DNA from: Thermodesulfobacterium geofontis OPF15
GTDB lineage: Bacteria; Desulfobacterota; Thermodesulfobacteria; Thermodesulfobacteriales; Thermodesulfobacteriaceae
Reading direction: 5' to 3'
DNA length: 64,000 bases
Assembly: GCF_000215975.1 (NCBI RefSeq)
Contig: NC_015682.1
Coordinates: 124,001-188,000, forward strand
Shown piece by piece: positions 38,434 to 47,757 of the stretch. Position numbers and translations under genes: made by a program. How positions within the stretch are numbered: position 1 is the first letter of the stretch; each line of letters begins with the position of its first letter. The notes beneath the pieces are model-generated. The model saw only the letters and a program-made list of their open reading frames with translations. It was not told where the DNA came from and did not search any database.

Positions 38434-39633
38434 TTATTCTAAAATTTTTGTAACAACTCCTGCTCCAACCGTCCTTCCACCCTCTCTTATAGCAAACCTC
38501 AACCCCTCCTCTAATGCAACCGGCTTTATTAACTCAACCTCTAACTCCACATTATCTCCAGGCATCACCATCTCAACCCCATCAGGTAACTTTATAACCC
38601 CTGTAACATCTGTCGTCCTAAAATAAAACTGCGGTCTATACCCACTAAAAAATGGCGTATGCCTACCTCCCTCCTCCTTCTTCAACACATATACCTCAGC
38701 CTTAAACTTAATATGCGGCTTTATACTACCAGGCTTCGCTACCACCTGACCCCTCTCTACATCATCCTTCCCTACTCCCCTCAAAAGTATCCCTATATTA
38801 TCACCAGGTAATGCCTCATCAAGTATCTTCCTAAACATCTCAATACTTGTTGCAACCGTCTTAATCGTCGGCCTAAGCCCTACCACCTCAACCTCATCTC
38901 CAGGCCTAAGCACTCCCCTCTCTACCTTACCCGTCACAACCGTTCCCCTACCACTTATACTAAATACATCCTCTATAGGCATCAAAAACGGCTTGTCTAC
39001 ATCCCTTATTGGCTCAGGTATATACTCATCCATCGCCTTCACCAACTGCCATATAGCCCCACACCACTGACACTCCTCCTTACCACACCCACACTCAAGC
39101 GCTCTCAAAGCACTACCCCTTATAACCGGTACCTCATCACCAGGAAATCCATACTTCGTAAGTAATTCCCTAACCTCTAACTCAACTAAATCCAATAACT
39201 CAGGATCATCTACCATGTCAATCTTGTTCATAAATACCAATATGTACGGAACATTAACCTGCCTCGCAAGCAATACATGCTCCCTCGTCTGAGGCATAGG
39301 ACCATCATCTGCTGCAACAACAAGTATTGCCCCATCCATCTGCGCTGCACCAGTTATCATGTTCTTTATATAATCAGCATGACCAGGACAATCTATATGC
39401 GCATAATGCCTCTTCTCACTCTCATACTCCACATGCGCAAGCTGTATCGTTATACCCCTTGCCTTCTCCTCAGGTGCCTTGTCTATCTCATCAAATGGAA
39501 CCCACCTCGCTAATCCCTTCGTCGATAACACCCTCGTTATCGCACTCGTTAATGTGGTCTTCCCATGATCAATATGCCCAATAGTCCCTACATTTAAATG
39601 AGGCTTCTTCCTCTCAAATTTAGCCTTCGCCAT
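38434..39633 (-). CDS. tuf: Elongation factor Tu with a four-cysteine insertion
   Basis: EF-Tu delivers aminoacyl-tRNA to the ribosome. The 399-aa protein has G1 GHIDHGKTT (19-27), DCPGH (81-85), NKID (136-139) and GSAL (173-176), plus intact domains 2 and 3. At the end of the G domain an added segment reads [17 protein letters not shown], with C181, C183, C188 and C191 in a CxCx4CxxC pattern, suggesting a metal site. Codon choice (AAG, GGG, ACG, GCG, CTC on the coding strand) is unlike the AAA/GGT/ACT style of neighbouring ribosomal genes. Confidence 0.98.
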
Positions 39634-39684
39634 CTCCTCTCCTCCCTAAAAATATAATTATAATCCAATTTTTATTTTTATTTA

Positions 39685-39757
39685 AGCCCACGACCGGACT
39701 CGAACCGGTGACCACTTCCTTACCAAGGAAGTGCTCTACCTCCTGAGCTACGTGGGC
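39685..39757 (-). tRNA. tRNA-Thr (anticodon GGT)
   Basis: Acceptor arm GCCCACG/CGTGGGC, anticodon stem CTTCC/GGAAG around TTGGTAA, and a T-loop in GGTTCGAGTCC. No 3' CCA is encoded. It lies between tRNA-Gly and tuf, probably on one transcript. Confidence 0.95.
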
Positions 39758-39775
39758 TTAATTATCAATTTTCAA

Positions 39776-39847
39776 AGCGGGCGACGGGACTCGAACCCGC
39801 AACCCTCAGCTTGGAAGGCTGATGCTCTACCATTGAGCTACGCCCGC
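39776..39847 (-). tRNA. tRNA-Gly (anticodon TCC)
   Basis: Acceptor arm GCGGGCG/CGCCCGC, anticodon stem CAGC/GCTG around CTTCCAA, T-arm GGGTTCGAGTCCC. No 3' CCA is encoded. Confidence 0.95.
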
Positions 39848-39865
39848 ATTACCAAATAATTTAAA

Positions 39866-39948
39866 TGGAGGGGGGAGGATTTGAACCTCCGAAGGCGAAA
39901 GCCACCGGGTTTACAGCCCGGCCCCTTTGGCCGCTCGGGTACCCCTCC
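39866..39948 (-). tRNA. tRNA-Tyr (anticodon GTA)
   Basis: A class II tRNA with a long variable arm (TGGCTTTCGCC). Acceptor arm GGAGGGG/CCCCTCC, anticodon loop CTGTAAA. No 3' CCA is encoded. It is the first gene of the tRNA-tuf run. Confidence 0.95.
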
Positions 39949-39981
39949 AATTTTTATTAAAATTAACTTATTTTAAAATTT

Positions 39982-39987
39982 TGTCAA
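39982..39987 (-). promoter_or_regulatory. Consensus -35 element before the tRNA-Tyr/tuf operon
   Basis: A perfect TTGACA on the minus strand lies 33 bp before the tRNA-Tyr 5' end. The -10 is less clear; TAATTT at a 16-bp spacing is the best fit. This gap (39949-40004) is the only space between qmoC and the tRNA genes. Confidence 0.5.
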
Positions 39988-40004
39988 GAGAAGCTAAAGT
40001 GATA

Positions 40005-41198
40005 TCAAGACATTTTCTGATTTATATCCTTAAAATATAAATCAAATACAACTGCTGTTGTTCTAAAAGCAAGATGTGCAAATTTAGAATAAGCTACACC
40101 TAAAAATAAAATAAATACAAATACTAAATGGGCAATATAAATTAAAGAAGTAAGTGATCTTAGAGCAGAAATATTACGAAAGATTTCGATTCCAAATCCA
40201 GTTAAACCAACCAATAAAATTAAATACACTAAAAAACTATCAGGATAACTAGTCTTTACACTTTTTTCCCTTTCAGCTTGAGATCTTCCTAAAATTATAC
40301 TAATAATCCCATAAAGAAGCATAAGCCCTCCGATATTCCCCAACCATTTTACAGGATGAAGAAGAGGATTCCAAGGTGTATGAAATCCTAAAATATCTGC
40401 CATAACAAAAACAATAGCTGTAGTTAAAGCTAAGAGAATAAAAGCCCAAAGGAGAACTTTATGAGGTAAAGCTCTCCATTTATTAGCTTCACATTTTTCA
40501 AATCTATTGTGATTTAAAATTTCTCCAATGGCTGAAAGTAAATAAGTTTTTAAAATAGTCCACATACCATATCTATAAGCTTGAGGAATCTTATAAGTTT
40601 CTACATAGGCATTCCACATTCTGTTAATAGCTGAAAATAAAATAATAATTACAAAAACTGCTAAAGGTAAAAATATTACATCTATCATCAAAACTCTTGC
40701 AGGAAGATGGATAAACCAAATTTCATAAGAAGGACCTCCGTAAGGGAAAGAATCCGCATCAAAGAAATTGGGAATTCCTCCAAAGGTAGCAATTGTAGCA
40801 ATTAAAATAAAAAAGAGGGCAATTAATATAAGAATAGGAAATCCCCAAGCATTATTATAAAAGGTGTGTAAAAATTTAAAGGGTGTTGCTTCTTTAATAA
40901 CAGAAAGTCTTAAGGCTGCCATTACTTCACCAGGATTAGCTCCTCTCGGACAATATTTACTACAATCTCCACATTGATGACATAACCAAATAGCTGGATC
41001 ATTAAGTAATTTCTCTTTAAAACCCCATTGAGCTAAAATCATCTGTTTTCTTGGGAAGGGTGCTTCATCAGGTGATAAAGGACAAACTGTAGAACAAGTA
41101 GCACATTGATAACATTTTTTTAATGTATCTCCTCCTAAGCTCTGTATTTCCTTAATTGCTTCTAAATCTACATCAACTTTTATAATTTCATTAGCCAT
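40005..41198 (-). CDS. qmoC: Quinone-interacting membrane-bound oxidoreductase subunit QmoC
   Basis: QmoC is the membrane subunit of the complex that exchanges electrons between the quinone pool and AprBA. The 397-aa protein has two HdrC-like 4Fe-4S sites (C29, C32, C35, C39 and C73, C76, C79, C83) followed by a six-helix-type cytochrome b/NarI-like membrane domain from about residue 120. It is the last gene of qmoABC, 12 bp after qmoB. Confidence 0.95.
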   Translation of the reverse strand: MANEIIKVDVDLEAIKEIQSLGGDTLKKCYQCATCSTVCPLSPDEAPFPRKQMILAQWGFKEKLLNDPAIWLCHQCGDCSKYCPRGANPGEVMAALRLSVIKEATPFKFLHTFYNNAWGFPILILIALFFILIATIATFGGIPNFFDADSFPYGGPSYEIWFIHLPARVLMIDVIFLPLAVFVIIILFSAINRMWNAYVETYKIPQAYRYGMWTILKTYLLSAIGEILNHNRFEKCEANKWRALPHKVLLWAFILLALTTAIVFVMADILGFHTPWNPLLHPVKWLGNIGGLMLLYGIISIILGRSQAEREKSVKTSYPDSFLVYLILLVGLTGFGIEIFRNISALRSLTSLIYIAHLVFVFILFLGVAYSKFAHLAFRTTAVVFDLYFKDINQKMS

Positions 41199-41210: not shown

Positions 41211-43418
41211 TTACCAACCTTTAAATGGATTTTCTTCAAATCCTTTTATTTCTTCATTAAATTCATTCATCTTTTTAATTACCTCTTCTACTTCATCAAT
41301 AGCTACAGTGTATAAAGTTACTCTTTCTGGCTCTAAAGCGAGTTGTTGTAAAGTTTCTGCAACATTTTCCATACGTCTATTAGCTAATTCACTTCCTTTA
41401 ATAAAATGGCACTGATAATTTTCACCATATTTACATCCTAATAAAAGAATTCCATCATAACCTTTACTCATGGCATCTTTAACAAAAGAAACATTAACTG
41501 CTCCTAAACATCTAACAGGGATTATTCTAAAAGTAACAGGTATGCTTTTTCTTTGAAGAGCTGCCATATCTAAAGCTGGTAGAGCATCATTTTCACAGAT
41601 AAAAGCCATAAGCCTATAAAGTCCATAACCTTGTTCTGGCATTTCAGTTGCCCTTATCATATTTCCAACCATCTCAATAGAGTAATCTTTAAAATTAATA
41701 ATTCTCTGAGGACAAGCACCGAAACAGGTTCCACAACGTCTACATCTTGTAATATTTGGTAAAGGATTACCTTTTTCATCTTCATTTAAAGCACCAAAAG
41801 GACACTCTTCAGTACATCTTTTACACTGAGTGCACATTTTAAGGTCAAATTCTGGATAGGCAAAATCCCAAGTTCTTGGATGAACTGCATGACCCTCTTC
41901 AATAGCAACAAGGCACTGAATAGCCTTAAGAGCTGCTCCACGTGCATCTTCTATTGCTTGTGCTATAGTCATTGGTTGATGAATTGCACCTGCAGCATAA
42001 ATACCAGTTCTTCTTGTTTCATAGGGGAAACAAATATAGTTAGAATCGGCATATCCATAAAAGAGTTCAAGTTCATCAGGAGGTAACCCTGGACCTTGTC
42101 TATATTCTAAATTAAGGACAGGTCCTTCAGCTGTTACAGGAACCATTCCTATAGCGAGGACCACCAAATCAACATTTATTTCTAATTTTTCTCCCAATAG
42201 CGTTTCTTCAACTATTACTTTTACTTTTCCATCTTCCCCCTCAGAAACTTCAACCACTTTACCCTTAGTTAAAAAGACACCTGGATCGTCTTGCAAAGTT
42301 TTATAAAAGTTTTCATAAATTCCCATTGTTCTCATATGGTCATAAATTATAAATGCCTTTGCATCAGGATCTGCTTCTCTAATATATTTAGCCTGTTTAA
42401 GAGAAGCTAAACAACAATATCCTGAACAATAGGGTAAATGATTTTCGTCTCTTTGTCCAGCACATAGAATAAAAAGAACACTTTTAATAGGTGCCCCATC
42501 TGAAGGTCTTATAAATTTACCTTCTTTTGCCATTTCCTCAAATTGAACATTAGTGACTACATTTTTAATATTTCCATATCCTAAGGAGTCAAGTTTACTT
42601 GCATCATAAGGTTTAAATCCAGCTGCTAAAACAATAGCCCCTATTTTGACCTCCTCTTCTTTTCCATCTACATTAATCTTTACCTTAAATAGTCCAGGCA
42701 TTCCTGAAATACTTGCAACAGTTGCCTTTTTATAAACCTTAATTTTTTCATTACTTTCTACTTGAGAAATAAGTTCATCTACTATAGGAGGAACAATATT
42801 TTTAAAAGGATGTTTAACTTCGCAATGACCCTTCATTTTAGCAACAAATCCACCCAGTTCTTTTTCCTTTTCAACTAATACTACATCATAACCGGCATTA
42901 GCAGCTTCTAAAGCTGCTGTCAATCCTGCTACTCCCCCACCAATAACAAGTATAGTTTTAGAAATTTCCTCTTCTGGTTTAAATGGTTCAGGAAGTTTAT
43001 AAACTTGAAGTTTAGCAACTCCCATTTTAACATAATCCTTTGCTAAAGCCATAAGCTCATTTTTAAAAGGAACTCCCTCGATATAGTCAGCAGTGTCTTC
43101 TAAAATCTCTCCTCCTTCTCCTAAAAGAAATCTACTCCAAACTATTCCTTCCCTTAAATTAACCCTTTCTACAGCCACATTTCCAAAATCAAAGACATCA
43201 TAATTAACTCTTGGAGAACAGGCACAAATAGAAACAGCATCAAGTCCGTTCTCTTTAATTTTTTCTTCAATAAAAGCTTTGCCCTCCTTTGAACAGAGAA
43301 ATTCCCTACTATATACTGCAACTGCTCCCTGATCACGAGCAGCATTTTCTAATTCTGCAATATCTAAACGATTACCAATATCACAAGAAGTGCATATAAA
43401 TACACCTATCTTTTCCAT
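41211..43418 (-). CDS. qmoB: Quinone-interacting oxidoreductase subunit QmoB (HdrA-like flavoprotein with MvhD domain)
   Basis: The 735-aa protein combines an N-terminal HdrA-like part, an FAD-binding Rossmann motif (VIGGGVAGLTAALEAA at about 154), two ferredoxin-type 4Fe-4S motifs (CTQCKRCTEECP and CRRCGTCFGACP) and a C-terminal MvhD-like iron-sulfur domain (VRCLGAVN, LLGCKYGENYQCHF). This is the standard QmoB layout. In the current view it faces AprBA and passes electrons between QmoA and QmoC. Gaps to qmoA and qmoC are 3 and 12 bp. Confidence 0.95.
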   Translation of the reverse strand: MEKIGVFICTSCDIGNRLDIAELENAARDQGAVAVYSREFLCSKEGKAFIEEKIKENGLDAVSICACSPRVNYDVFDFGNVAVERVNLREGIVWSRFLLGEGGEILEDTADYIEGVPFKNELMALAKDYVKMGVAKLQVYKLPEPFKPEEEISKTILVIGGGVAGLTAALEAANAGYDVVLVEKEKELGGFVAKMKGHCEVKHPFKNIVPPIVDELISQVESNEKIKVYKKATVASISGMPGLFKVKINVDGKEEEVKIGAIVLAAGFKPYDASKLDSLGYGNIKNVVTNVQFEEMAKEGKFIRPSDGAPIKSVLFILCAGQRDENHLPYCSGYCCLASLKQAKYIREADPDAKAFIIYDHMRTMGIYENFYKTLQDDPGVFLTKGKVVEVSEGEDGKVKVIVEETLLGEKLEINVDLVVLAIGMVPVTAEGPVLNLEYRQGPGLPPDELELFYGYADSNYICFPYETRRTGIYAAGAIHQPMTIAQAIEDARGAALKAIQCLVAIEEGHAVHPRTWDFAYPEFDLKMCTQCKRCTEECPFGALNEDEKGNPLPNITRCRRCGTCFGACPQRIINFKDYSIEMVGNMIRATEMPEQGYGLYRLMAFICENDALPALDMAALQRKSIPVTFRIIPVRCLGAVNVSFVKDAMSKGYDGILLLGCKYGENYQCHFIKGSELANRRMENVAETLQQLALEPERVTLYTVAIDEVEEVIKKMNEFNEEIKGFEENPFKGW

Positions 43419-43421
43419 TTT

Positions 43422-44660
43422 TTACCCCCTTAATATAGTTTGAACAGCTTTCAAAGCTGCGCCAGTTGCTGTTTCATTAGAAGTCATAACATCAAGAGGC
43501 ATTTTAGCACATCCACAAGCAATTATCCCGTTTTCTGAAATTACAAAACCGTTTTCATCAACTTCAAGTCCTTTAATATTTATTCCTGCTATACTTGGTT
43601 GCATACCAAGTGCAAGAACAACCAAGTTGACTTTTTCATGTATTTTTTTACCTGAAAGTATATCTTCTGCTGTGACTATTAAATCTTTAGTTTCAGGATC
43701 TTCTTCAATTTTCGCTACCTTTCCTTTAATAAAATTAATGCGAGCCTCATTTTGAGCTCTTCTTAAAAATTTTTCATATCTTCCAGGTGTTCTTATATCT
43801 ATGTAAAAAATTAAGGCTTCAGCCTCAGGATCTTGTTCAGCTAAATATAAACTTTGCTTAAGAGAGGCTAAACAACATATATAGGAACAATAGGGCAAAT
43901 GATTTTCATCACGTGATCCAGCACACTGAACAAAGGCAACCCTTTTAGGAAAACTTTGATCCGAAGGTCTTAAAATTTTTCCTCCAGTTGGTCCCCAGGG
44001 CGAAGCAAGTCTTTCCATTTGCATATTGGTTATCACATTAGCATATTTACCATACCCTAAATTATCAAGTTTTGTAGCATCATAAGGTTTCCAACCAGTT
44101 GCCCATATAATAGCTCCTACTTCAAACTCTAAGGTTTCTTCTTTCATATCTGGATCTATAGCATTATATTTACAAGCAGACATTATTCTTTCTAAATCTC
44201 CGGGAGCTAAGGCGGATTTATCAAGAACATATTTCATAGGAAATGCCATAGGATGAGGCAAATAAATTGCTTTTGTTTTTCTTAATCCAAAATCAAATTC
44301 ACTTACTCTTTCACCCTCACAAACTTTCTCACACTCTCCACAAGCTGTACAATTGTCATTCACATATCTTGGCTTAACAACTGCCTTTACTTTATAATTT
44401 CCTTTTTCGCCAGAAATTTCTGCAATTTCTGTCATAGTATAAACTTTGATTCTGGGATTAGTTTTAATTCTTCTATAATTAATCTCTAAACCACAACTAG
44501 GAGGACAAAGTTTTGGAAAATAATATCTCAGTTGAGCAACCCTTCCACCTAAGCTTGGTTCTTTTTCAATTAATATTACTTCAGCTCCAACCTCAGCAGC
44601 TTCTACTGCTGCTGTTATTCCACTAATTCCTCCTCCTACAACTAATATAGGTTTTTTCAT
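43422..44660 (-). CDS. qmoA: Quinone-interacting oxidoreductase subunit QmoA (HdrA-like flavoprotein)
   Basis: The 412-aa soluble flavoprotein starts with the FAD motif VVGGGISGITAAVEAAEVG, then an HdrA-like cysteine segment (CPPSCG), a partial ferredoxin motif NCTACGECEKVC and LPYCSYICCLASLKQS. TTAGGAGGTAATT precedes the ATG. No promoter is seen between aprA and qmoA; instead a terminator and a 22-bp inverted repeat fill the gap, so expression probably depends on read-through from aprBA. Confidence 0.95.
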   Translation of the reverse strand: MKKPILVVGGGISGITAAVEAAEVGAEVILIEKEPSLGGRVAQLRYYFPKLCPPSCGLEINYRRIKTNPRIKVYTMTEIAEISGEKGNYKVKAVVKPRYVNDNCTACGECEKVCEGERVSEFDFGLRKTKAIYLPHPMAFPMKYVLDKSALAPGDLERIMSACKYNAIDPDMKEETLEFEVGAIIWATGWKPYDATKLDNLGYGKYANVITNMQMERLASPWGPTGGKILRPSDQSFPKRVAFVQCAGSRDENHLPYCSYICCLASLKQSLYLAEQDPEAEALIFYIDIRTPGRYEKFLRRAQNEARINFIKGKVAKIEEDPETKDLIVTAEDILSGKKIHEKVNLVVLALGMQPSIAGINIKGLEVDENGFVISENGIIACGCAKMPLDVMTSNETATGAALKAVQTILRG

Positions 44661-44676
44661 AATTACCTCCTAAGAA

Positions 44677-44727
44677 TTATTTTCAGGATAAATCCCCTCT
44701 CTCAAAGGGGATTTATCCTGAAAATAA
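44677..44727 (-). promoter_or_regulatory. Perfect 22-bp inverted repeat in the qmoA leader
   Basis: The arms 44677-44698 and 44706-44727 are exact reverse complements (core CAGGATAAATCCCCT) around a 7-nt loop. The stem ends 6 nt before the qmoA ribosome binding site (44666-44670), so it could modulate qmo translation, stabilise the processed qmo message, or act as an attenuator. Protein binding as DNA is also possible. Confidence 0.7.
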
Positions 44728-44730
44728 AAT

Positions 44731-44766
44731 AAAAAAAGAGGGGGCTTAAAGCCCCCTCTTTTTTTT
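44731..44766. terminator. Strong terminator after aprA, usable on both strands
   Basis: AAAAAAAGAGGGGGC pairs with GCCCCCTCTTTTTTT around TTAAA. It lies 10 bp after the aprA stop codon, between the sat-aprBA and qmoABC parts of the cluster. Confidence 0.85.
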
Positions 44767-44776
44767 ATTCTAAATT

Positions 44777-46777
44777 TTACGGTCCAAGTGGATCAGGAAT
44801 AATCTGGACATAAGGATAAGTTTCTAAAGTCCACTCCTTAGTTTCAGGATTATAAGAGGAAAGAGTGAAGCATCTCCAATTTGCATCATCAAGATTGGGA
44901 AAGTCAGTTCTGTAATAGTATCCAGGATAACGGGTTTCTTCACGGAAGAGAATATGTAAAAGATGAGCTTCTGCAGTCCATACACGATGTCTATTTTCAT
45001 AAGCTCTCATAAGTTCATGAAGGTCTCTTGCAGCTGCAAGCTCCATATCTTCCTTAAGCATCTTAATAAGCTCAAGACCTCTTTCAAGCATAACTTTATT
45101 AGTTTTATAGAAGGTGGAGCATCCAGCAACGTATTCATCCATAAGTTTCATAAGTCTATCCTGAATATGACGAGGTATCAAGTAGTTTGGATTAACTTCA
45201 TAAGCAGTAGTTGCAGTCTTAAATTGTTCAAATCTATACCAGGGACCATAAATTTCTTTCTTTAATTCTTCAGGATTTTCTTTTGGAGTAGGTTTGTAAT
45301 CTTTATGATCTAAGCAGAATTTTACCATAGCTTTAGCTGCAATTCTACCTTCTACATGAGAACCAGAGGAGAATTTATGTCCAGATGCTCCTACAGTATC
45401 TCCTGCACAGAAAAGTCCCTTTACTGTGGTCATTCTGTTATAAAGCCCGATTTCTCTCCAAGGAGCTTTATATTCTTCAGGAACCCAATCTTCATCAGGA
45501 CCGCATACCCAAGCACCGGCACATCCAGCATGAGATCCTAAAAGATAGGGTTCTGTAGGCATAATTTCAGAGGGGAGTTTTTCAGGTTCAATATTTAAAC
45601 AAGCCCAAAGTCCAGCCTGAGTTACACACATGTCAAGGAAGTCTTCCCAAGCTTCAGCAACAAGATGTTTAAATTCTTTCTTATCCATTTTCTCAGCAGC
45701 TTCCTGAAGCGCCCATTCAGTATGCATATAGATAGGTCCACGTCCAGCTTCCATTTCAATAAGCATAGCATGGTTTCTCAAGCAGGTTCCAATATGAGAT
45801 GCCTCACCATAAGGAGCAAATTTCTTTAACTCATCTTTATGCTTTGCTACATAATCTTCTCCAAATGCATTAGTTGCTCTTGCTTTAAAGAGTAAGAACC
45901 ATGCTCCAACTGGACCATAACCATCTTTAAAACGTGCAGGTATAAATCTATTTTCCATAAGTACAAGCTTAGCACCAATTTGGGCACACATTGCATATCC
46001 TGTTCCAGGATTCCATACAGGATACCAAGCACGCCCTTTTCCTTCACCAATTGATCTTGGACGGAATACATTAACAGCTCCACCAGTAGCAAGTAATGTA
46101 GCATTTGCTTTAATAATATAAATTTTGTTTTCTCTTACAGAGAATCCCACTGCTCCAGCACAACGATTAGGCTCATTAGCATCAAGAAGAGGTCTTACAA
46201 TAAAACATCTTTCAATAATTTCTGCCTTATCATAACCAGTAAGAGCATTTTTGGCTGCTTCAGCAACAATTACTTTATAAGATTCACCATTAATCATTAT
46301 CTGCCAGCGACCAGAACGAACAGGTTGAGCACCAGCTTTAAGAGTTAGCCCTTTAGCCTTTGCTTCAGCACCATCTAAGGTTTTTCCAGTCTGGGGATCT
46401 TTTTTCCAAATAGGGAGACCCCATTCTTCAAAACAATGAACTGTATCGTCAACATGACGACCTACATCAAAAACAAGGTCTTCACGAACAATACCCATTA
46501 AGTCACAACGGACCATTCTAACATAGTCATCAGGTGTATTCTCCCCAATATAGGTATTTATAGCAGAAAGACCCATAGCTACTGCACCAGATCTTTCCAT
46601 AGCAGCCTTATCACAAAGAATAATTCTTAATCCATGAGGTTTAGCCCACTGAACAGCTTCTACCGCAGCACCACAAGCTGCCATTCCACCACCAACTATC
46701 AAAATATCTGTTTCCTTTTCTACAATTTCAGGTTCTGCACATTCTAAACCAGGATTATAATGCCAAATCTTAGGCAT
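44777..46777 (-). CDS. aprA: Adenylylsulfate reductase subunit alpha
   Basis: AprA binds FAD and reduces adenosine 5'-phosphosulfate to sulfite and AMP in the cytoplasm. The 666-aa length is typical. The FAD motif ILIVGGGMAACGAAVEA is near the N-terminus and FCAGDTVGASGHKFSSGSH near the middle. The true start is the ATG at 46777, because AAAGGAGGTGGC lies just before it; an earlier in-frame TTG contains that site. aprB is 32 bp upstream. A terminator follows. Confidence 0.97.
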   Translation of the reverse strand: MPKIWHYNPGLECAEPEIVEKETDILIVGGGMAACGAAVEAVQWAKPHGLRIILCDKAAMERSGAVAMGLSAINTYIGENTPDDYVRMVRCDLMGIVREDLVFDVGRHVDDTVHCFEEWGLPIWKKDPQTGKTLDGAEAKAKGLTLKAGAQPVRSGRWQIMINGESYKVIVAEAAKNALTGYDKAEIIERCFIVRPLLDANEPNRCAGAVGFSVRENKIYIIKANATLLATGGAVNVFRPRSIGEGKGRAWYPVWNPGTGYAMCAQIGAKLVLMENRFIPARFKDGYGPVGAWFLLFKARATNAFGEDYVAKHKDELKKFAPYGEASHIGTCLRNHAMLIEMEAGRGPIYMHTEWALQEAAEKMDKKEFKHLVAEAWEDFLDMCVTQAGLWACLNIEPEKLPSEIMPTEPYLLGSHAGCAGAWVCGPDEDWVPEEYKAPWREIGLYNRMTTVKGLFCAGDTVGASGHKFSSGSHVEGRIAAKAMVKFCLDHKDYKPTPKENPEELKKEIYGPWYRFEQFKTATTAYEVNPNYLIPRHIQDRLMKLMDEYVAGCSTFYKTNKVMLERGLELIKMLKEDMELAAARDLHELMRAYENRHRVWTAEAHLLHILFREETRYPGYYYRTDFPNLDDANWRCFTLSSYNPETKEWTLETYPYVQIIPDPLGP

Positions 46778-46809
46778 AGTGCCACCTCCTTTCAAATTTT
46801 TTAAATTTT

Positions 46810-47310
46810 CTAAGCTGTTTTAATTTTCATAGTTTTACCAAGTGCACCAACTTCAAATTTTTTGTTTAATACTGCAGCAGGTTTAGCAGGCTCTTTTCCA
46901 TCAGCAGCTTCAGTAAAAAGCTGATTGGTATTAATTAATGCAGGATCGGGTGTTGGTTTCCCTACTGTAGGATCAGCAGAACCTTCAGGAGTAGTTCTTG
47001 TAGGATACTTAAATCTTAAAACCACACCATTTCTAAATTTAATTGTCCACATAATATCAGTAGTTCCACGCATAGGTTGACAGGTTCCATGAAGAGGAGC
47101 GAAATCTGCATAATGTCTTACAGAAATTGCTCCTTGAGGACAGCTTTTTACACAGCTATAACATTCCCAGCACTGATCAGGTTCCTGATTGTAAGCTTTC
47201 ATTGCTTCAGGATCAAGAATCATAAGGTCATTAGGACAAATGTACATGCATACTGTTTTGTCTCCACCTTTGCATCCGTCACATTTTTCAGGATTTACAT
47301 AACTTGGCAT
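46810..47310 (-). CDS. aprB: Adenylylsulfate reductase subunit beta
   Basis: AprB is the two-cluster ferredoxin-like subunit that feeds electrons to the FAD of AprA. The 166-aa protein has the cluster motifs KCDGCKGGDKTVCMYICP (near residue 9) and QCWECYSCVKSCP (near 47), then the extended C-terminal tail that wraps around AprA. AGGGGGTG precedes the ATG. It lies between the small 134-aa gene and aprA. Confidence 0.97.
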   Translation of the reverse strand: MPSYVNPEKCDGCKGGDKTVCMYICPNDLMILDPEAMKAYNQEPDQCWECYSCVKSCPQGAISVRHYADFAPLHGTCQPMRGTTDIMWTIKFRNGVVLRFKYPTRTTPEGSADPTVGKPTPDPALINTNQLFTEAADGKEPAKPAAVLNKKFEVGALGKTMKIKTA

Positions 47311-47334: not shown

Positions 47335-47739
47335 TTATTGAACTGGTTTTTGTACTGGATTTTTTTGTAATTCTAAAATATCACTTATATCAATATCTGG
47401 AACAGGAAGCTCTCTATCTTCTTTTTCAATCTCTTCCTTAATAGAAGGAAGTTCTTCAAGGGCTTTCTCGATAACCTCTGGACCTAAGGATTTTAATTCT
47501 ACAACCTTCTTAAATACGAGTCTTTTAAATGCAGCTGGAGTTTCTTCAATAAAACCTCTTGCGTCAAATCTTGCTCTTGAGAATTGATCAATAGTTTTTT
47601 GAGCAAGATCATCAGGAACCTCAATTACCAATCTTTTCAAAGCTCCTCCAAAAATAGGTTCAATTTTCTCTTCAAGAGGTGTTCCTTTTATAGCTGCAAG
47701 TCTTTTTTCATCTAATATGATTGCAAAATATTTAGCCAT
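47335..47739 (-). CDS. Conserved small protein between sat and aprB, function unknown
   Basis: The 134-aa protein has no cysteine, no signal peptide and no membrane helix. It begins AKYFAIILDEKRLAAIKG and has a predicted alpha/beta part (RLVIEVPDDLAQKTIDQFSR) with an acidic C-terminal tail ending in a proline/glutamine stretch. I do not recognise a domain with certainty; similar small genes accompany sat and aprBA in some sulfate reducers. The ATG at 47739 is chosen for its GGAGGTGAAT site. It may assist assembly or assay the state of the Sat/Apr enzymes; that is speculation. Confidence 0.8.
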   Translation of the reverse strand: MAKYFAIILDEKRLAAIKGTPLEEKIEPIFGGALKRLVIEVPDDLAQKTIDQFSRARFDARGFIEETPAAFKRLVFKKVVELKSLGPEVIEKALEELPSIKEEIEKEDRELPVPDIDISDILELQKNPVQKPVQ

Positions 47740-47757
47740 ATTCACCTCCTTTACTTT

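Follow-up and report, generated by a model that had tools for sequence, protein, structure and literature searches.

Among the closest described systems are the ABC importers of Ruminiclostridium cellulolyticum, in which, according to the excerpted report, internal intrinsic terminators set the ratio of the flanking transcripts, and a longer poly-U tract gives higher termination efficiency (PMC9045158). The aprA-qmoA junction of Thermodesulfobacterium geofontis OPF15 is similar in that a stem-loop and T tract stand between a first gene whose product is needed in greater amount and the membrane-partner genes, but the importer terminators have poorer U tracts, and a second conserved stem is not described in the excerpts of that report (PMC9045158). 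In Bacillus subtilis cggR-gapA and glnRA, hairpins in the leader of the downstream gene stabilise the downstream product of an RNase Y cut made upstream of the stem, with an effect that depends on exonuclease activity; the part of the article available indicates that the cggR stem sets stoichiometry by stabilising the downstream piece, not by driving the cut (PMC11780869). The present junction likewise has a leader stem ahead of its downstream gene, but here a terminator lies upstream of the stem, RNase J is missing and there is no known cut site. In operons shaped by selective RNA processing and stabilisation, intergenic stem-loops set the subunit ratios of complexes; in the excerpted accounts these stems lie at the 3' ends of the selected genes (PMC4423207, PMC8219983), whereas the second stem described here is a 5' leader.

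The junction lies in a window of 64,000 nucleotides, which is the whole stretch of DNA that we analysed (contig NC_015682.1, positions 124,001 to 188,000, forward strand). AprBA and QmoABC form the electron-accepting core of sulfate respiration, and there is no settled account of how cells keep the very abundant soluble enzyme and its membrane partner in balance. At the aprA-qmoA junction, a conserved and compact RNA device would provide an answer that can be tested directly in a lineage of thermophiles, and the double hairpin might be used as a well-defined component for adjusting gene ratios at high temperature. A description of the junction was not found in the open-licence literature (most subscription journals fall outside that scope), and in the excerpts of an article on sequencing-intractable gaps, qmoABC occurs only in the reference list (PMC3409199). 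In Desulfovibrio piezophilus under pressure, the protein levels of AprA and QmoA move in opposite directions, and the expression of aprA/qmoA does not change significantly, as given in the portion of that study available (PMC3559428). These opposite shifts show that the ratio is tunable, and are silent on the double hairpin.

We propose, with a probability of about one half, that a two-part RNA element splits one transcription unit at this point, with the terminator limiting read-through into qmoABC and the second hairpin serving as the qmo leader. Both hairpins belong to kinds of part that are already known, and one order keeps them in a fixed arrangement.

Layout of the aprA-qmoA junction

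On the minus strand the genes run in the order sat, a DUF6955 gene, aprB, aprA, a 116-nt gap, qmoA, qmoB and qmoC. The aprA-qmoA gap is the sole long one in this string, and all others are short. The features are as follows, in window coordinates.

46810 to 47310, minus strand: aprB (TIGR02060 above cut-off)
44777 to 46795, minus strand: aprA, adenylyl-sulfate reductase alpha subunit, the upstream gene (TIGR02061, E 8e-300, above cut-off)
44731 to 44765, minus strand: hairpin 1, intrinsic terminator (perfect 17-bp inverted repeat with a G+C core and a T-rich tail at 44730-44721)
44677 to 44727, minus strand: hairpin 2, conserved RNA stem of the qmoA leader (22-bp perfect inverted repeat, covariation, strand asymmetry, single copy)
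44666 to 44671, minus strand: qmoA Shine-Dalgarno AGGAGG (from the sequence; 5 nt past the end of hairpin 2)
43422 to 44660, minus strand: qmoA, which opens the membrane-complex genes (named by HdrA-type similarity and by its place ahead of qmoB and qmoC)
41211 to 43418, minus strand: qmoB (HdrA-type similarity and position)
40005 to 41198, minus strand: qmoC (NF038018 above cut-off)

NCBIfam matches above cut-off identified sat, aprA, aprB and qmoC; for qmoA and qmoB the NCBIfam matches were to HdrA-type models only, below cut-off. The best named relatives by QmoA were Thermodesulfobacterium records at 90–92% identity. The DUF6955 protein between sat and aprB (136 aa, window 47335-47745) was recognised by Pfam (E 1.3e-28) and had no NCBIfam match.

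The original prediction held that the gap consists of a terminator and an exact 22-bp inverted repeat placed just ahead of the qmoA ribosome binding site, and the coordinates bear this out. Read along the minus strand, hairpin 1 is followed by 3 nt, hairpin 2, TTCTTAGGAGGTAATT and the qmoA ATG. The two arms of hairpin 1 (44731-44747 and 44749-44765) are complementary at 17/17 positions, and the minus strand directly after it reads ATTTTATTTT; on the sense strand a T tract comes directly after the G+C-rich stem, as in an intrinsic (Rho-independent) terminator. Folded as the plus strand, the whole region reached -57.6 kcal/mol (z = -10.35), a value that none of 200 shuffles equalled.

Structure and rarity of hairpin 2

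The arms of hairpin 2 (44677-44698 and 44706-44727) are complementary at 22/22 positions around a 7-nt loop, and as minus-strand RNA the stem grows to 24 pairs with a 3-nt loop. It is a stable stem that leaves the Shine-Dalgarno free, as would suit a 5' stabilising hairpin if the functional message begins close to it. Rarity was judged in a 284-kb sample (G+C 31%) made up of the window and 11 further 20-kb stretches of the genome, which contained three perfect stems of at least 14 bp with loops of 3–12 nt; the two longest were hairpins 1 and 2. Allowing G-U pairs and up to 2 mismatches gave 30 entries of at least 18 pairs when both strands were counted; stems with imperfections are thus not rare. 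Hairpin 2 was the longest of these 30, and one of two without a mismatch.

Hairpin 2 has a predicted energy of -33.6 kcal/mol at 37 C; at 80 C the value is -9.8 kcal/mol, and 23 pairs remain, suggesting that the stem should stand at thermophilic growth temperatures. Going by these predictions, its length may be nothing more than what heat demands. A stem of 22 pairs exceeds what a simple 5' shield would need at moderate temperature, which counts against our proposal; the group, however, is thermophilic.

Conservation in related genomes

A search of related genomes for the same double hairpin, proposed along with the original prediction, proved positive, with a terminator and a second stem in 37/37 gaps of the order Thermodesulfobacteriales. 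From 159 qmoA loci, 137 aprA-qmoA gaps were read (22 loci had no readable aprA neighbourhood), of which 111 were unique. After exclusion of two gaps longer than 450 nt (L126 and L135), 109 were sorted into 37 from Thermodesulfobacteriales, 52 from other Desulfobacterota and 20 from Nitrospirota, the groups being assigned from record titles and kinship only. The terminator was called as the first hairpin after aprA with at least 4 T in 8 bases; within the order an earlier criterion had mostly picked hairpin 2 in its place, and the z values from that criterion were not used.

A terminator followed aprA in 37/37 gaps of Thermodesulfobacteriales, 47/52 of other Desulfobacterota and 20/20 of Nitrospirota. 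The predicted separation of aprBA from qmoABC by a terminator is thus upheld, with both hairpin and T tract present in the window and the terminator kept throughout the order. The stretch between terminator and qmoA folded with z < -3 in 35/37, 14/51 and 9/20 gaps of the three groups, respectively. The two gaps of the order that missed this cut were L016 (z -2.6) and L108 (z -0.3); in L108 the terminator call took in part of the stem, and its near twin L109 had z = -5.7. Within the order, gaps measured 107–142 nt, and the second stem spanned 14–28 positions in all 37 (at least 19 in 35/37); the medians were 22 pairs (Watson-Crick or G-U), 6 nt for the loop and 20 nt for the distance between stem and ATG. 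Scored without credit for G-U, the second stem passed a comparison with 40 shuffles in 33/37 gaps; L024, L026, L027 and L036 failed.

The constant position of hairpin 2 ahead of the Shine-Dalgarno points to a leader function. It also bears on the idea that hairpin 2 is a second, back-up terminator. The scan did label it terminator-like with a weak tail, but the minus strand after it reads TTCTTAGGAGG, which has no T tract, a further terminator would silence the membrane complex, and the position of the stem is tied to the ribosome binding site; we regard this identity as very unlikely.

We considered and rejected the notion that the double hairpin is universal among sulfate reducers. Terminators are nearly so; outside the order, second stems occur only in part of the gaps and, to judge from the sequences, lack the G-U bias described below, which counts against our explanation. 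Eight Nitrospirota gaps (L144, L156, L139, L146, L159, L143, L149 and L158) carry, after the terminator, repeats of the AATGCA type or long palindromes whose loops are large, without a G-U bias.

An Rfam search gave 102 listed matches, all under their gathering scores (the best at 44.6 bits, with 75 required), and we set these weak matches aside as generic hairpin matches. With a covariance model of the whole gap, the aprA-qmoA site of close relatives headed the match list. Twelve other matches were read, of which 11 resembled single terminators and one (L176) was a terminator plus hairpin linked to a RAYT-like gene; in one of the 11, that in L182, a weaker and imperfect hairpin came after the terminator.

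The L176 match brings up the reading of hairpin 2 as a mobile palindrome of the REP or MITE type that landed here by chance, for which a terminator and hairpin by a RAYT-like gene elsewhere in a relative is the one supporting sign. Hairpin 2 is single copy, with no second copy found in the genome, and it occupies the orthologous position in 37/37 gaps, with covariation; an accidental insertion is extremely improbable. In L176 (positions 1645-1759; same genus), the terminator and a long perfect hairpin are followed by a REP-associated (IS200-type) transposase-like gene. This double hairpin is a look-alike of quite different origin, the gene having been named by eye.

Selection on the second stem

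Between the main sub-lineages of the order, the sequence of the second stem varies widely while its pairing is kept. Covariation was measured in three alignments, A1, A2 and A3, of 20, 9 and 7 sequences, which together cover 36/37 gaps (L105 was left out). Pairs had changed on both sides at 13/20, 11/18 and 6/19 positions, respectively, and covariation scores stood above their shuffled means in each (0.507 vs 0.206, 0.619 vs 0.372 and 0.376 vs 0.233). When the register was slid by one column, paired cells dropped from 95–100% to 53–67%, a control that is biased in favour of the fixed structures, since these were derived from the same alignments.

A DNA palindrome is expected to gather G-U and A-C mismatches alike, composition aside, whereas an RNA stem read towards qmoA is expected to retain G-U only. 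Stems were therefore picked on Watson-Crick matches alone, with G-U and A-C treated alike. Over the 37 gaps of the order the ratio of G-U to A-C was 85:1 at the milder penalty and 75:1 at penalty 1.0; a first register search (57:2) was replaced because it had found wrong or truncated stems in L024, L027, L032 and L036. G-U was carried by 30/37 gaps and A-C by 1/37, among related sequences that are not independent. Shuffled gaps of the order gave 542:158 (mononucleotide) and 1717:573 (dinucleotide); these nulls are also rich in G-U, indicating that part of the excess, but not all of it, reflects composition. In other Desulfobacterota the ratio was 65:56 against 856:717 in shuffles (47/52 gaps, those with less than 40 nt after the terminator having been dropped), and in Nitrospirota it was 47:32 against 369:327. 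Because these ratios are close to the shuffled ones, second stems outside the order may be DNA repeats.

Together, covariation and G-U bias argue for selection on the sense-strand RNA, and by these comparative signs hairpin 2 in Thermodesulfobacteriales is selected as RNA read towards qmoA. The double hairpin is a strongly conserved RNA feature, for which an ordinary role is plausible. Mismatches in the second stem over the 37 gaps comprised 22 G-G and 0 C-C, and a G-G mismatch recurs within the stem in most sequences of sub-lineages A2 and A3, where it perhaps marks a contact with a protein or enzyme.

Promoter and operator signals

The gap had been described as lacking a visible promoter. 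One sigma-70-like match, TTGAGA-18-AATAAT (44705-44676), does lie inside hairpin 2, agreeing at 10/12 positions where 0.3 such matches are expected, so the statement needs amending to that extent; a start from it would fall within the qmoA Shine-Dalgarno. The match recurs in close relatives only. Scanning the 37 gaps of the order with a sigma-70-type consensus only, we found promoter-like matches in 5/37 (1.8 expected) and usable ones in 1/37 (1.3 expected), and hence no usable conserved promoter of this type, in line with the substance of the claim.

The same observations weigh on the possibility that the gap is a DNA operator or a qmoABC promoter, with the palindrome as the binding site of a regulator. 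The perfection of the palindrome and the single 10/12 match would suit such a site. The G-U:A-C ratio is unlike that of DNA palindromes, however, the stem sequence turns over between genera, and the match is unconserved with its start inside the Shine-Dalgarno. An operator palindrome would be marked by a conserved half-site and no strand bias among mismatches, and hairpin 2 failed on this count. We consider this reading improbable.

Proposed mechanism and possible RNase III processing

In the mechanism that we favour, polymerases coming from sat-aprBA would reach the intrinsic terminator right after aprA, where most would stop, so that the aprBA message would carry a stable hairpin at its 3' end. 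In transcripts that read through, the next feature is a long stem, some 22 pairs in length and held at about 20 nt ahead of the qmoA start, which covariation and G-U bias indicate to act as sense-strand RNA. Hairpin 2 would then most likely become the 5' structure of the qmo message once the upstream part of the transcript is lost, and from that point could shield it from 5'-end-dependent decay by RNase E/G or RNase Y. Terminator and hairpin 2 together would hold Qmo at a lower level than AprBA, with no need of a second promoter. It is a reasonable hypothesis that the terminator sets the AprBA:Qmo ratio, and the best reading of hairpin 2 is probably that, as a leader, it stabilises the qmo 5' end or marks a processing site. 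The T tract of hairpin 1 is long, and read-through may consequently be low, as far as its sequence can tell; this would be hard to reconcile with the need of the pathway for the Qmo complex, and counts against our explanation.

The genome has genes for RNase III, RNase E/G and RNase Y (all above cut-off), and no RNase J was found in it above cut-off. With RNase J absent, protection would have to act against the 5'-sensing endonucleases (RNase E/G or Y), or else the stem would be a substrate of RNase III. In the latter case, hairpin 2 would be a processing stem, about two turns of double-stranded RNA at which a cut parts the aprBA message from that of qmoABC, like the stems of the pnp leader and rRNA spacers. 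RNase III substrates have about 20 or more pairs of near-continuous helix. With 24 positions here and an order median of 22 pairs, equal to two helical turns, the stem is long enough; paired length clusters at 21–24 (median 22) while sequence and loop are free, and the enzyme is encoded. Length by itself is weak evidence, however, internal G-G mismatches are retained in several lineages, and a cut would leave the qmo 5' end unstructured. We rank 5' protection narrowly ahead because cutting would destroy the constantly placed structure, and consider RNase III processing a credible but rather unlikely alternative.

More speculatively, and in our view unlikely, the whole element could be an order-wide structured RNA new to the catalogues, in which a partial terminator is combined with a two-turn stem that is cut or capped, with an output that shifts with temperature because both stems are near their predicted limit of stability. 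If so, one sulfate-respiration transcript would yield two messages of different abundance.

Downstream genes

Following qmoC (window 39600-40005) are tRNA-Tyr, tRNA-Gly, tRNA-Thr, tuf, tRNA-Trp and ribosomal protein genes in the same direction, and no terminator-like hairpin was found between qmoC and tRNA-Tyr in the window. The terminator after aprA might therefore mainly shield this tRNA-tuf-ribosomal cluster, rather than set the AprBA:Qmo ratio, and the qmoC-tRNA-tuf order (tRNA-Tyr-Gly-Thr-tuf after qmoC) is indeed shared with 6/9 of the relatives fetched. The other three (L013, L017 and L018) lack that neighbour and have both hairpins, so we rejected insulation of the cluster as the sole reason for the element. 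Even as its main role, shielding seems doubtful and of low probability, as it leaves hairpin 2 unexplained and the terminator is also present in distant groups. A TTGACA hexamer lies just 3' of qmoC.
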